A DNA stretch of 64,000 nucleotides. Source: Sedimentibacter sp. MB35-C1 (lineage in GTDB: Bacteria > Bacillota > Clostridia > Tissierellales > Sedimentibacteraceae). The notes beneath the pieces were generated by a model. The model was not told the origin of the DNA. It ran no database searches and saw only the letters and a list, made by a program, of their open reading frames with translations. The DNA lies in assembly GCF_030913635.1 (NCBI RefSeq), contig NZ_CP133188.1:186001-250000 (forward strand), given 5' to 3'. A program made the translations under genes and the position numbers. Below are positions 2,644-7,030 of this stretch, piece by piece (positions within the stretch are counted from its first letter, which is position 1; the number at the start of each line of letters is the position of its first letter).

Positions 2644-2865
2644 TTAGCCCTCTTCAAATATCTCTATAACCTCAAACCCCTCCTCGTTAATGGCATCACA
2701 TAATTCATCTTCCGTTAATACACCCCGGACATATTCTACAATGATGGATTTTTCCTCTAAATTTAAGATTACCTTATCCACACCGCTCATGCCCTCTAAA
2801 ATTCGAGATACGGCACTGCCCATTGGCATATTATCCATACCCTCAACAACAATAACCTTTTTCAT
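2644..2865 (-). CDS. HMA-fold small protein lacking the metal-binding CxxC
   Basis: The 73-residue protein has the beta-alpha-beta pattern and spacing of heavy-metal-associated domains: MKKVIVVEGM at the start, GVDKVILNLEEKSIIVEY in the middle, and AINEEGFEV near the end. The GMxCxxC signature is replaced by GMDNMPM (residues 9-15), so Asn12 and Met15 stand where the two metal-binding cysteines should be. It is the last gene of the TetR-HelD-ACP-like operon, 10 bp behind the ACP-like gene. Loss of both cysteines argues against ordinary copper chaperoning; a protein-interaction role or binding through Met is inference. Confidence 0.65.
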   Translation of the reverse strand: MKKVIVVEGMDNMPMGSAVSRILEGMSGVDKVILNLEEKSIIVEYVRGVLTEDELCDAINEEGFEVIEIFEEG

Positions 2866-2875
2866 TTATTTCCTC

Positions 2876-3109
2876 CTATTCTGCAATCAGTGCATCCACA
2901 TATTTAACTACATCATTCACTGTCTGGAATGTATGAACATCTTCATCGTGAATTGTCACTTCAAAACGCTTTTCAATTTCGATCATCAGTTTTGCAATAT
3001 CAATCGGTTCAATATTGTATTCTGGTGTCAATGGTGTTTTTCCACTTAAATCATTTTCGGAAGCACTTATAATCTTGCAGAGCAAAGAAATAATAATATC
3101 CAGAGTCAT
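2876..3109 (-). CDS. Acyl-carrier-protein-like protein lacking the phosphopantetheine serine
   Basis: The 77-residue protein has the length and helix layout of ACPs, with conserved positions in MIEIEKRFEVTIHDED and TVNDVVKYVDALI. In ACPs helix II begins with the DSL/DSLD motif whose Ser carries 4'-phosphopantetheine. Here the equivalent positions read EPID (34-37), with Pro35 in place of Ser, so it cannot be charged in the usual way. Its ATG overlaps the HelD stop by 4 bases (ATGA), implying translational coupling. It may be a structural or regulatory partner of the helicase-like protein. Confidence 0.7.
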   Translation of the reverse strand: MTLDIIISLLCKIISASENDLSGKTPLTPEYNIEPIDIAKLMIEIEKRFEVTIHDEDVHTFQTVNDVVKYVDALIAE

Positions 3110-5346
3110 ATTCTGATACCTCCTTGAACCAAATAACTTTTTTCACCTGTATAAAACAGATTGAGTCGATGCAGAGCACGGGTGCTGGCGATATACAACA
3201 GCTTTTTATCATTGACTGAATGATAATGCTTTTTATCTACACCGTAAATTAGGACAGAATCAAACTCCAATCCTTTTGACATGGTGATAGGGATAATAAA
3301 CGCTCCTGCTGTATTTAGGTTTTCACCCGAGCGTACCAGATGAAGGCTCAATTTATCTTTTAAACGCATGTAAAGAAATTCTGCTTGCTGTGCATCTTTA
3401 CATATAATTCCGATAGACCCATAACCTTGGTTTTTGCTGTAAATAACTTCTTCGATAATTTTCTCGTCAAGCAAATCCATTTCAGTAGCTTCAATAACCT
3501 GTGGCATATCACCACTGCGATTAAAACTCTCAAATAGAGTACTATCGTCCAAAAACTGCATACTAAATGAAAGTATCTCTTTGGTGCATCGAAAGCTTTT
3601 ATTCATAACCATTAAGCAGGAACTGCACGGTTGCAAGATCTCCGTGATTCTTTCATACAAGCTCATATTTTCCTTTTTTTCAATTGTTTGATTGATATCA
3701 CCCAATATGGTATACCGTGCATTTGGAAACAATCGTTTTAAGATCTCAAAATGAAAATCATAGTAGTCTTGTGCTTCATCCACTACGACCTGCCGGATGT
3801 TTCTGTAGTTATCATTTGTACTGATCAATAGCTGCAAATAGGTTACAGCCAAAGCATCCTCATTTTGAAGCGTAGATTCTGCGAGCTGTTTCTTTGAGTA
3901 AGTCAGTATTTCCTCAATGTTGTTTGGCAATCCAATTTCAGCTGAAAGAGAAAGCAATAAACCATCTGTGTTTATCAATTTTTTGTAAAGCGCAATAGCA
4001 TCCAATTTGACAAACTCATCAACTTTTTGAGCGAGAAGAGTGCTTTCTTCAATAGACAGCTCTCTTGCATATTCTTCCCAATCAAAAGGATGCTCAGGGT
4101 CTTCCCTTGCTTGCCGCAACAGTTTAGGCATCCGATCTTTACGCATCTCATGTATTTTATCAAAGATATACCGGCGCAAATGGCTCAGTTTTACCGCTAG
4201 ACTAATATTTCTATTCATTTGCAGCAGACGTTCTTTTAAATGCTGCCCTGTAAAAACTATTTTTCCATCATACTCAATATCGGGAAAGACGATATGAGAT
4301 GTTGACAGGCTATCTACATATCTGTTTATTATTCTGACAAAGGCTCTGGACATTTTGAATTCCATTGATTGCTTTTGCAGAGCTTTCGCAGCAGATGATG
4401 TGAAGGAAATCAGCATTTCGGTTTGGTTGTAGCGGGACTGAAATGCTGGCTTATCCGGCAGACTATTCGTTACCAAATCATCAAACACAACAGATTTCAC
4501 TTCATCCTCACCCAGCTCCGGCAAAACATCGGAAATATATTGTTCAAATAGAGTGTTAGGGGATAGAATAATAATATCTTTCAGTCGGCTTGAAAGACCC
4601 TGATATTTGAGGTAAGCCACACGATGCAAAGCAATGGAGGTTTTACCGCTTCCGGCAATGCCTTGCACCATAAGCAAGTCGTGAGACACATCTCGGATGG
4701 CAATATCCTGATCTTTTTGGATAGTTTCTACAATGGTTTTCATTTTGCTGGATGTGTTTTCAGAGAGCATTTTACGTAAAAACTCATCTGCAATCTGAAC
4801 ATCGGCATCAAAAAAGTACTCAAAGACTCCTTTTTTTATTTCATATTGCCGTTTCAGCCCAATATCTCCGGTAATGCGGCCACCCGGTGCATCATAATAT
4901 GCATTTCCGGTTTCAAAACGGTAAAACAGGCTTGCAATAGGAGAACGCCAATCATAGATGATAATTCTTTTCTCCTGATCATTAAATAATGTCCCTCTGC
5001 CAATGTAGATTTTTTCGTACTGTTCTTTACTTACAGAGCAAAAATCAATCCGGGCAAAATAGGCCGATTGCAATAATCGCTCCAGCAGCTGTACTTTTTT
5101 TGCACTGGATTCTATTGCCAAAGTATTGCTGGCAAGTGGTTGATAAAATTGGCTTAACTGAGCCGCTCCATCAAAATCATCTGCGGAATGGGAGGCATTC
5201 TCCCACATTTCTCGGTTTGTTTCTCTTAAGGCTTCTATGCTTTTGGAGTTGACTTTTTTAGCATCCTCCAATTGTTCGTGAATGACATCAAGAATCTCAT
5301 TGTAATGAGCAAGTTCAATTTTAAATTCCTGTTCATAGTTTTCCAA
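3106..5346 (-). CDS. HelD-like UvrD/Rep-superfamily ATPase (RNA polymerase recycling factor family)
   Basis: The 746-residue superfamily-1 ATPase has the architecture of Gram-positive HelD: a long N-terminal coiled-coil arm (about 1-100), a Walker A box GIAGSGKT at 229-236, a Walker B-like VVDEAQDYYDF around 520, and a C-terminal helicase motif (YIASTRALHRL). HelD proteins act on RNA polymerase, releasing stalled complexes, and some relatives protect it from rifamycins. Translation starts at TTG (5344-5346), supported by GAGGTG five bases upstream. It lies behind a TetR gene and is coupled to the ACP-like gene. No RNA-polymerase-active antibiotic gene is adjacent, so the resistance role is inference. 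Confidence 0.85.
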   Translation of the reverse strand: MENYEQEFKIELAHYNEILDVIHEQLEDAKKVNSKSIEALRETNREMWENASHSADDFDGAAQLSQFYQPLASNTLAIESSAKKVQLLERLLQSAYFARIDFCSVSKEQYEKIYIGRGTLFNDQEKRIIIYDWRSPIASLFYRFETGNAYYDAPGGRITGDIGLKRQYEIKKGVFEYFFDADVQIADEFLRKMLSENTSSKMKTIVETIQKDQDIAIRDVSHDLLMVQGIAGSGKTSIALHRVAYLKYQGLSSRLKDIIILSPNTLFEQYISDVLPELGEDEVKSVVFDDLVTNSLPDKPAFQSRYNQTEMLISFTSSAAKALQKQSMEFKMSRAFVRIINRYVDSLSTSHIVFPDIEYDGKIVFTGQHLKERLLQMNRNISLAVKLSHLRRYIFDKIHEMRKDRMPKLLRQAREDPEHPFDWEEYARELSIEESTLLAQKVDEFVKLDAIALYKKLINTDGLLLSLSAEIGLPNNIEEILTYSKKQLAESTLQNEDALAVTYLQLLISTNDNYRNIRQVVVDEAQDYYDFHFEILKRLFPNARYTILGDINQTIEKKENMSLYERITEILQPCSSCLMVMNKSFRCTKEILSFSMQFLDDSTLFESFNRSGDMPQVIEATEMDLLDEKIIEEVIYSKNQGYGSIGIICKDAQQAEFLYMRLKDKLSLHLVRSGENLNTAGAFIIPITMSKGLEFDSVLIYGVDKKHYHSVNDKKLLYIASTRALHRLNLFYTGEKSYLVQGGIRI

Positions 5347-5409
5347 GTAAACACCTCATTTCGAATGGTAAAATCTAACATTAGCATCATGACAATCATT
5401 TATATTGCT

Positions 5410-5442
5410 CAATGCCCACATTGGTGGTTAGGGTTCACCCTA
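5410..5442. promoter_or_regulatory. Two short inverted repeats between TetR and HelD genes
   Basis: CAATG-CCCA-CATTG (5410-5423) and TAGGGT-TC-ACCCTA (5429-5442) lie in the 120-bp gap. They could attenuate transcription from the TetR gene into HelD or be operator half sites; no poly-T tract follows. Confidence 0.3.
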
Positions 5443-5466
5443 TTGCAACAGCTTTGTTTCAAAAGA

Positions 5467-6075
5467 TTACGCTTCATCACTGCTTGCAAGACATAACCGA
5501 AACATACGGACGGCTTCACGAGTAATATAGGCCTTTAGCTCTGTTTCATTCTCAATCAAACCTCTTCCTAAAAGATAATTTGAAATTTCTCCTACAATGT
5601 AGCAATGGGTATTATGAAGAATTCGTTTGGTCACATCTCTATTTGGGTATTGCCCATAAAGTTCTTTCCATATGTTGGATATATGCTGATTTAGCATTTT
5701 GTTTGTTGCTTCTGTTGTTTCAATATCTTCCTGCGGACGATCTCCATCAATATATTCATGCCATGCAAGTCGAAACCATCCTTTGTTATCCAGATACATT
5801 TCGACACAGGCCTCGAAGAAATAAGTAAGGCGCATCTCTGCAGTATTTGCTACATTCAGCTTTTTTGTGAGCATTTTCATAAATATCTCCTGTATAGCAA
5901 CGTGTGTTTCCCATAACAAATCATTGTATGAGGGAAAATAATTATATAAATTTGTATGGGCGCATCCTAATGTTCGGGCTATTTCTCGAAGATTAAGACC
6001 TCGCAAATCACTATTATTGCGCATAAGCTCAAGAGCTGTTTCTACAATTTGCTTTTTAGTTATATTCCTTTTCAC
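5467..6075 (-). CDS. TetR-family repressor of the HelD operon
   Basis: With the GTG start at 6073-6075 the protein has 202 residues. The start is fixed by GGAGGT at 6081-6086, five bases away; a longer frame would begin inside the palindromic operator. The N-terminal helix-turn-helix is clear (LNLREIARTLGCAHTNLYNY), and the rest is the variable ligand-binding domain with Trp/Tyr-rich helices. Its own promoter is overlapped by the 38-bp palindrome, so autoregulation is likely, and the HelD gene follows 120 bp downstream in the same direction. The inducer is unknown. Confidence 0.85.
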   Translation of the reverse strand: MKRNITKKQIVETALELMRNNSDLRGLNLREIARTLGCAHTNLYNYFPSYNDLLWETHVAIQEIFMKMLTKKLNVANTAEMRLTYFFEACVEMYLDNKGWFRLAWHEYIDGDRPQEDIETTEATNKMLNQHISNIWKELYGQYPNRDVTKRILHNTHCYIVGEISNYLLGRGLIENETELKAYITREAVRMFRLCLASSDEA

Positions 6076-6088
6076 TTTGCACCTCCAT

Positions 6089-6126
6089 CTTACATTACCA
6101 ACGGTAATTACCGTTGGTAATGTAAG
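6089..6126. promoter_or_regulatory. 38-bp perfect palindrome, probable TetR operator
   Basis: The two 19-base halves are exact reverse complements, centred between 6107 and 6108. The half site contains TTACATTACCAACGGTAA. It covers the transcription start downstream of the -10 and ends just before the ribosome site of the TetR gene. Its length and symmetry suggest two overlapping dimers. Confidence 0.8.
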
Positions 6127-6153
6127 CATACTCCTTTACACTTTTTTTGTCAA
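6125..6153 (-). promoter_or_regulatory. Promoter of the TetR-HelD operon
   Basis: -35 TTGACA (6148-6153) and -10 TATGCT (6125-6130) with 17-bp spacing on the minus strand. The -10 touches the palindrome edge. Confidence 0.7.
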
Positions 6154-6271
6154 CAAAAATGTCATTGGTTTAAAATGAAATATGAAAAGTAAATCTTGCT
6201 AATACAGAGTCTGTTTTTATTTGCAGGTACTTAATATCTCTGTTCCATACTTGGCAAGGAGTATGGAATGA

Positions 6272-7030
6272 ACAATTACTCGAAAGGCTTTCTCATCAAT
6301 AGAAATTCGCGAGGAACACAAGGATTTTGGTTATCGAAGAATATATGGAGAACTTAGCTTAAAAATCAACAAAAAGAAAGTTTAAAGACTAGTTCAAAAG
6401 CTTGGTTTGCAAGTAAAATCATATACACGCAAGAGCAGAAAATATTCATCATATAAAGGCGTTGTAGGCAGAATTGCAAAAAACATGGTTAACAGACGAT
6501 TTAATACAAGCATTGTTCATCAAAAAATTACAACTGATACAACAGAGTTTAAGTATTATGAATTTGACGACAAAGGAAGATTGATAACAAAGAAGATGTA
6601 TTTCGATCCATTTTTAGATATGTTTAATGGAGAAATTCTAAGTTACAGTATTACCCGAACACCATCAGCAGATGGTATTATGAACGCTTTAAATCAAGCG
6701 ATAGCTGCAACAAATGATTGCAAATACAGAAGGACTTTTCATTCTGATAGAGGCTGGGCATATCAAATGAAAGCATATTCCAAAACATTAAAAAATAATA
6801 GGATATATCAAAGCATGTCACGCAAAGGTAATTGTTTAGACAATTCAGTAATGGAAAATTTCTTTGGTATCTTAAAGCAAGAAGTCTATTACGGAAACAC
6901 ATTTTATAGTTTTGACAAGTTAAAAGCAGAAATAGAAAAATATATAGATTATTACAATGATAAACGCACAAAGCAAAAACTTGGCTACTTTACTCCTGTC
7001 CAGTACAGGCTAAATTATCAAGTTGCATAA
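6272..7030 (+). pseudogene. IS3-family (IS150-like) transposase orfB, broken
   Basis: The sequence encodes an rve/DDE integrase-core transposase: REEHKDFGYRRIYGEL, then TDTTEFKYYEF, FHSDRGWAYQM (second Asp), and CLDNSVMENFFGILKQE (final Glu), ending in TPVQYRLNYQVA. The frame is interrupted by TGA at 6269-6271 and TAA at 6383-6385, so only the last 207 codons are open, and no good start codon or ribosome site precedes them. orfA is absent. The right end appears to lie near TTGGGGTCA (about 7075-7082). The copy is dead. Confidence 0.85.

Follow-up and report, generated by a model that had tools for sequence, protein, structure and literature searches.

What would a protein of carrier fold that has lost its cofactor serine do beside an RNA polymerase recycling motor? 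The question is raised by a four-gene operon on the minus strand of a 64,000-nucleotide stretch of the Sedimentibacter sp. MB35-C1 genome (NZ_CP133188.1, positions 186,001 to 250,000; hereafter the window), laid out in the direction of transcription as promoter, palindrome, tetR, helD, a gene for an acyl carrier protein (ACP)-like protein and a gene for an HMA-like protein. A first-pass annotation had located these four genes, correctly as it turned out, and had taken both small proteins for adapters, decoys or sensors acting with HelD rather than enzymes. Our comparative analysis showed a fixed genetic linkage between a cofactor-less protein of ACP fold and one group of class I-type HelDs, often with translational coupling. 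Since the same pair turns up in bacteria that are only distantly related, the ACP-like protein probably now works as a partner of HelD.

We began from the identity of the two proteins. HelD scored 555.3 bits against the NCBIfam model NF041464 (HelD_BACSU; cut-off 419), which upholds its first assignment as a HelD-type factor, and aligned over residues 6–740 with B. subtilis HelD in the Protein Data Bank (PDB) entry 6wvk, chain H (391 bits), the N-terminal region of the two proteins being alignable as well. Its scores against two HelR models (127 and 123 bits) were far below their cut-offs of 750 and 1100. The ACP-like protein passed the Pfam PP-binding cut-off (PF00550; 33.9 bits, cut-off 20.8) and stayed below those of all listed NCBIfam ACP models (best score 38.6 bits; cut-offs at least 65). 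Its predicted structure was weak (predicted local distance difference test, pLDDT, 70.5), with helices compatible with an ACP and ACPs as the nearest folds (best Foldseek E 2.6e-3), and the fold assignment therefore rests on sequence.

Relatives of the operon were collected at two depths. A pattern-based search with the ACP-like protein as query in one genome per species (84,980 species), which reaches close relatives only, gave five close loci, in Anaerovorax odorimutans (L001), a Desulfosporosinus sp., two Anaerotignum and a 4-kb contig of a metagenome-assembled genome labelled Neobacillus. All five keep the order helD, ACP-like, HMA-like, with protein identities of 78–93%, and tetR is present in all four that are long enough to show it. 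Whole-genome protein and profile searches added 13 divergent members (39–51% identity), bringing the ACP-like family to 19 with the window. A profile built from the 19 scores its members at 111 bits or more by construction, and ordinary ACPs at 66 or less. The family is rare, being found in 3 of 391 sampled genomes of the class by profile and in 3 of 398 sampled from the phylum with the single protein, the window's own genome counted each time.

For 18 of the 19 ACP-like genes the next gene upstream is helD (in L029 only the 3' part of helD is on the contig, and in L068 helD is read in two frames). The contig of the 19th, L032, begins inside what by eye appears to be a HelD C-terminus, and this locus is probably linked too. 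The neighbours are thus not random, as the first-pass annotation had allowed they might be. The gap between the two genes is at most 35 nt in 15 of the 18 loci, and in seven they overlap by 4 nt (ATGA in five, TTGA in two); in the window the ACP-like ATG and the helD stop share ATGA, as already read at first pass, and the HMA-like gene starts 10 nt past the ACP-like stop, with no overlap. In L067 an opposite-strand open reading frame (ORF; 6229–7026), transposase-like by eye, lies between helD and the ACP-like gene. Two truncated ACP-like stretches without an adjoining helD were not counted among the 19: L030, which carries stop codons in its 5' portion, and L031, which has no standard start codon there and scores 87.5 bits with the family profile. 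Gene order across these loci shows helD and the ACP-like gene to be the core unit.

The changes at the cofactor site are common to the whole family. Its 19 members were compared with 33 different ordinary ACPs recovered in the same searches (ACP-like start codons were assigned by hand; in the family alignments L034 is shortened and L068 runs into Ns at its end). Where ordinary ACPs have D-S-L or D-S-I, the window protein has E34-P35-I36, and Pro35, pointed out in the first-pass annotation, is kept in all six close loci, the window counted. Asp-Ser is found at the cofactor site in none of the 19 HelD-linked proteins, as against Ala-Asp-Ser in 33/33 ordinary ACPs; the residue at the Ser site is Pro in ten members, Ala in seven, and His and Ser in one each, and the preceding Asp is retained in a single member, there beside Ala. 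Position 40 is Lys or Arg in all 19 members and Glu in all 33 ordinary ACPs, position 47 is Lys in 17/19 as compared with Glu or Asp in 33/33, and position 59 is His in 14/19 as compared with Glu in 32/33. A stretch that is mostly H-D-E-D-V-H-T-F in the family is mostly P-D-E-D-A-E-K-I in ordinary ACPs. Three members (L034 8790–9080, L072 8013–8303 and L073 8651–8959) have a common C-terminal tail, ALHDxxQRxxWxY, that is absent from the others.

The acids of helix II are the binding place for the enzymes that act on carrier proteins. Since two of them have become Lys/Arg, binding to fatty-acid enzymes has probably been lost, with a new surface probably under selection instead. It could be argued that the protein continues to engage phosphopantetheinyl-transferase enzymes or those of fatty-acid metabolism, acting as a decoy or a brake that ties lipid synthesis to transcription, given its clear homology to ACPs, which are partners of many proteins. 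We consider this very unlikely in view of the basic residues at positions 40 and 47 and of the Asp before the Ser site, which all but one of the members have lost. Of the adapters, decoys or sensors suggested at first pass, a conserved non-enzymatic partner is supported, whereas the decoy is weakened for the ACP-like protein by the same Lys/Arg replacements.

Selection was assessed in the close relatives as the ratio of nonsynonymous to synonymous substitution rates (dN/dS), calculated with a Nei–Gojobori script. Mean pairwise values were 0.121 for the ACP-like gene (15 pairs), 0.12 for the HMA-like gene (14 of 15 pairs finite), 0.14 for helD (10 pairs) and 0.16 for tetR (10 pairs), and hence all four genes are under purifying selection there. 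The defining residues are gone in both small proteins, on which ground these might be mere passengers, degenerating copies of an ACP and of CopZ without function. Such an explanation is barely credible, however, with a dN/dS of about 0.12 that is near the helD value, with Asp-Ser gone in every member down to 39% identity, and with broken ACP-like copies confined to places that have lost helD. Decay is thus rejected by dN/dS together with the family-wide loss of Asp-Ser. The first-pass annotation had likewise held that the losses would be only decay if homologues in the same gene order carried DSL and CxxC; on alignment across helD neighbourhoods neither Asp-Ser (0/19) nor CxxC (0/6) was found, and the losses proved to be shared rather than specific to the window (Ser lost in 18/19, Cys in 6/6).

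The link extends to a particular kind of HelD. In a midpoint-rooted tree of 30 HelD rows, 17 partnered HelDs lie on one side of a single branch and 13 unpartnered ones, from genomes carrying the ACP-like gene or its remnant, on the other (support 96/95); as the root is a midpoint root, a clade of partnered HelDs is likely but not proven. L029, with helD split over contigs, and L032, with helD cut off, were left out of this tree; L003, whose helD begins outside the contig, and L068, with its two frames, were entered as C-terminal pieces; 13 of the 15 paralogue loci were used, the fragments L089 and L102 being omitted; and L088 was treated as the 5' half of the partnered helD of genome G014. No ACP-like ORF was found beside unpartnered helD paralogues in any of the 15 loci (E 1e-3, flanks up to 1.5 kb), and whole-genome searches of G700, G701, G614 and G1072, all with helD paralogue matches, found no second member of the ACP-like family. 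Distances among HelDs correlated with those among ACP-like proteins (r 0.93 over 15 loci, and 0.81 over the 11 non-redundant loci in which a single member represents the close clade), a value not reached in any of 5000 permutations, and shared descent alone can explain this correlation.

The HMA-like protein has a narrower distribution. The metal-binding motif of HMA domains is GMxCxxC, and the window protein reads GMDNMPM there, with Asn12 and Met15 in place of both Cys in 6/6 close operons, the window counted, and CxxC in none of the six helD-linked HMA-like proteins, just as the first-pass annotation had described for the window. It scored below the cut-offs of both Pfam HMA (16.1 bits, cut-off 24.8) and the NCBIfam CopZ model (E 3.1e-9, 36.9 bits, cut-off 91). 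An AlphaFold2 prediction (pLDDT 86.4, from six rows) has the order beta-alpha-beta-beta-alpha-beta, and Foldseek matched it to CopZ and to HMA domains of ATP7B with template modelling scores of about 0.8; the predicted model thus supports an HMA fold. In sequence the protein is a distant relative of CopZ. The gene is found in the six closest operons only, and in none of the divergent loci scanned; L073 provides a contrast, with an HMA gene that encodes CxxC and lies more than 4 kb from its helD. The HMA-like protein is best regarded as an accessory of one clade and may, by analogy, be a protein-binding module. As non-enzymatic partners of HelD, the two small proteins of the first-pass annotation thus fare differently: the case is strongest for the ACP-like protein, with 19 loci, and weaker for the HMA-like one, with a single close clade.

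Features of the operon in the window (positions count from its first letter; a dot indicates no strand)
Feature	Position	Strand	Remark
Sigma-70-like promoter of the operon, TTGACA-17-TATGCT	6125..6153	-	Promoter scan 10/12
Proposed TetR operator, perfect 38-bp palindrome with two TTACCNNNGGTAA units	6089..6126	.	Begins at the end of the -10 hexamer
tetR-type repressor gene	likely 5467..6075	-	GTG start 6073-6075; start in ORF list 6129
helD, class I-type RNA polymerase recycling motor	3106..5346	-	TTG start; NF041464 match
ACP-like gene, Pro35 at the phosphopantetheine Ser site	2876..3109	-	ATGA overlap with helD
HMA-fold gene, Asn12/Met15 replacing CxxC	2644..2865	-	Predicted fold; CopZ model match below cut-off

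The TetR protein scored 19.1 bits against Pfam TetR_N (cut-off 24), and matched TetR models with E down to 9.5e-7, below their cut-offs. Its orthologues are 79–93% identical in the four close loci and 48–49% identical in the two divergent loci that have tetR, L068 and L075, which gives seven tetR-bearing loci in all (the window, L001, L002, L004, L005, L068 and L075). As listed, the tetR ORF begins within the promoter and operator; the likely GTG start is preceded by GGAGGTG, and the operator is thus upstream of the gene. The 38-bp operator proposed at first pass is otherwise confirmed as a perfect palindrome. Its core, TTACCNNNGGTAATTACCNNNGGTAA, lies ahead of tetR in 7/7 tetR-bearing loci with differing arm letters, the palindrome being perfect in four and having two to four mismatched letters in three. 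With up to two mismatches the core pattern matched once in the window and never in 100 shuffles of it, and the 3.6-Mb genome has the exact core at a single place. Promoter-like matches were in no excess in the region (13, compared to 13.4 in shuffles), and TTGACA followed 17 nt on by a −10-like hexamer precedes the operator in all seven loci. Given this recurrent placement of operator and promoter-like site ahead of tetR, TetR most likely represses its own operon. The exact operator pattern was also found at one place in G588 among 398 genomes, where it precedes a related TetR gene (29% identity) and a flavodoxin-domain gene rather than helD (L106 7528–8725), and the TetR–operator type is therefore not confined to the helD cassette.

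The small proteins might act on TetR rather than on HelD, with the ACP-like protein, the HMA-like protein or both as a ligand-sensing anti-repressor or co-repressor, as tetR shares the operon in the seven loci just listed. Against this, the remaining divergent loci yielded no relative of the window TetR; six of them (L028, L033, L034, L067, L071 and L073) cover at least 3.8 kb upstream of helD; the sequence upstream of helD is too short to judge in L029, L069, L070 and L072 (71–607 bases) and in L032 (none). This makes an action on TetR decidedly unlikely.

DNA similarity between the close loci and the window is limited to the operon (first 12 kb of the window compared), and inspection by eye shows different ORFs in the flanks of L001, L002, L004 and L005. 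Within the window's family (27 genomes searched) every other copy is divergent (46–48%), whereas named genera belonging to three orders carry copies 84–92% identical to that of the window. Operon-only similarity, differing flanks and close copies in other orders point to spread of the cassette by horizontal transfer between distant bacteria. In the window the operon is flanked by an IS66 transposase fragment (2365–2703) on one side and by an integrase-core (rve) ORF (6407–7030) on the other. Three origins or functions were tried and rejected. A plasmid origin found no support: the operon DNA has no match in 72,556 plasmid records, and on plasmids the ACP-like query finds just an ordinary ACP in Priestia. 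As to a phage origin, the ACP-like protein has no phage match, and scans of viral contigs either came up empty or reached two loci whose ACP is an ordinary one with DSL; a single operator match, lying within a phage-like gene, was put down to chance. As to anti-phage defence, the PADLOC matches of HelD were to helicase models at 53 bits or less, and the other three proteins had none.

TetR control and horizontal spread among unrelated flanks, with transposase ORFs on either side, would also suit a drug-resistance unit against RNA polymerase inhibitors such as rifamycins, in which the small proteins strengthen HelD, and the B. subtilis helD promoter is reported to be rifampicin-inducible (PMC10719064). 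Nevertheless, the same review gives the minimum inhibitory concentration of rifampicin as unchanged upon loss of the B. subtilis class I HelD, and a role in rifamycin resistance, raised in the first-pass annotation, is unsupported on this account despite the inducible promoter. With the operon DNA unmatched in the plasmid records as well, a resistance unit is an unlikely explanation.

We therefore favour, as the probable reading, an operon that encodes a HelD working with a dedicated small partner, the ACP-fold protein serving as structural or regulatory cofactor. TetR would sit on the promoter operator and lift upon a ligand, whereupon HelD, the ACP-like protein and the metal-less HMA-like accessory would be made together. 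The ACP-like protein would then bind HelD or the HelD–RNA polymerase complex and help HelD to clear or release stalled polymerase, possibly in the role that delta plays in Bacilli. A more specific version can be put forward tentatively and is itself doubtful: that a class I-type HelD group recruited an ACP, which lost its prosthetic-group site and turned basic at conserved acids of the enzyme-recognition helix, as an obligate non-enzymatic recycling subunit replacing delta, and that the metal-less HMA protein was added later, in a mobile TetR-switched version.

The comparison with delta draws on B. subtilis, where delta and HelD are described as synergistic and interacting (PMC8655204, section 3.4). 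No HARE-HTH domain (PF05066) was matched over the cut-off in any of the 14 genomes with the ACP-like gene, several of them incomplete; among 14 named controls the same search was positive in three genomes, including that of B. subtilis. The window ACP-like protein had no HARE-HTH match in Pfam at E 1. G588, without an ACP-like partner, has a HARE-HTH match over the cut-off in a protein of about 330 residues that is not delta-like by eye. Proteins of 171 and 175 residues in G651 (L108 1204–1719) and G650 (L109 1471–1998) have a HARE-HTH-like C-terminus below the cut-off and an unusual N-terminus, and are not delta by eye.

Several points weigh against a dedicated partner or against its likeness to delta. 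G308, a genome without the ACP-like gene, has no HARE-HTH match over the cut-off either; the absence of delta from partnered genomes is therefore compatible with replacement but not diagnostic. The same section of PMC8655204 describes sampled Clostridia as having, with two exceptions, helD without delta, which further weakens a comparison that is weak already. Acidity was rejected as a link to delta, since it is lower in the family than in ordinary ACPs (charge −5.2 to −14.3, compared to −8.2 to −23.2, median −18.2, in the 33 ordinary ACPs; the window protein has an isoelectric point of 4.4). One HelD-linked protein, that of L032 (192–422), does have the Ser, within S-S-I, possibly as an ancestral or reverted state. 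Only eight HelD columns are specific to partnered HelDs, and these are scattered, with no clear docking site. Contact of the ACP-like protein with HelD or RNA polymerase is what we infer, and the linkage of the two genes could reflect shared regulation only.

Compared with known systems, the nearest likeness is to class I HelD with delta in B. subtilis (PDB entries 6wvk, 6zca and 6zfb), where HelD is homologous over nearly its full length and a small protein is likewise proposed to act with it; the partner here differs in having an ACP fold and in being encoded beside helD, in genomes without HARE-HTH over the cut-off. Acyl carrier proteins (PF00550, TIGR00517 and relatives) share sequence homology with the family, which lacks DSL/DSI and has two helix-II acids changed to Lys/Arg, and CopZ/HMA copper chaperones share fold and distant sequence similarity with the HMA-like protein, in which both metal-binding Cys are replaced. 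HelR and class II HelDs, known for rifamycin target protection, belong to the same motor family, with the HelR cut-offs far out of reach of the window protein. The integrated HMA domains of the rice immune receptors Pik and RGA5, which appear in the Foldseek list, are protein-binding HMA folds and offer an analogy only. No report of HelD paired with an ACP-like or an HMA-like protein was found among the open-licence PMC papers listed, in a search to which 'held' as a common word adds noise. By term counts, 'acyl carrier', 'operon' and 'neighbour' are all absent from the body of the HelD classification paper (PMC8655204), as is 'acyl' from that of a HelR review.

The HelD, ACP and HMA families are thus known, and what is new is a HelD subtype with a probably dedicated cofactor-less partner of carrier fold. 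The reason why several helD paralogues are present and expressed in some organisms is called unclear in the conclusions of PMC8655204, and a small partner peculiar to one HelD group provides a testable identity for one paralogue type. As the Clostridia sampled in that paper have helD mostly without delta, a partner of HelD in these organisms would close a recognized gap. If our reading is true, a carrier protein has been turned into a transcription cofactor, a role that automatic annotation would hide because the window protein passes the Pfam cut-off for carrier proteins.

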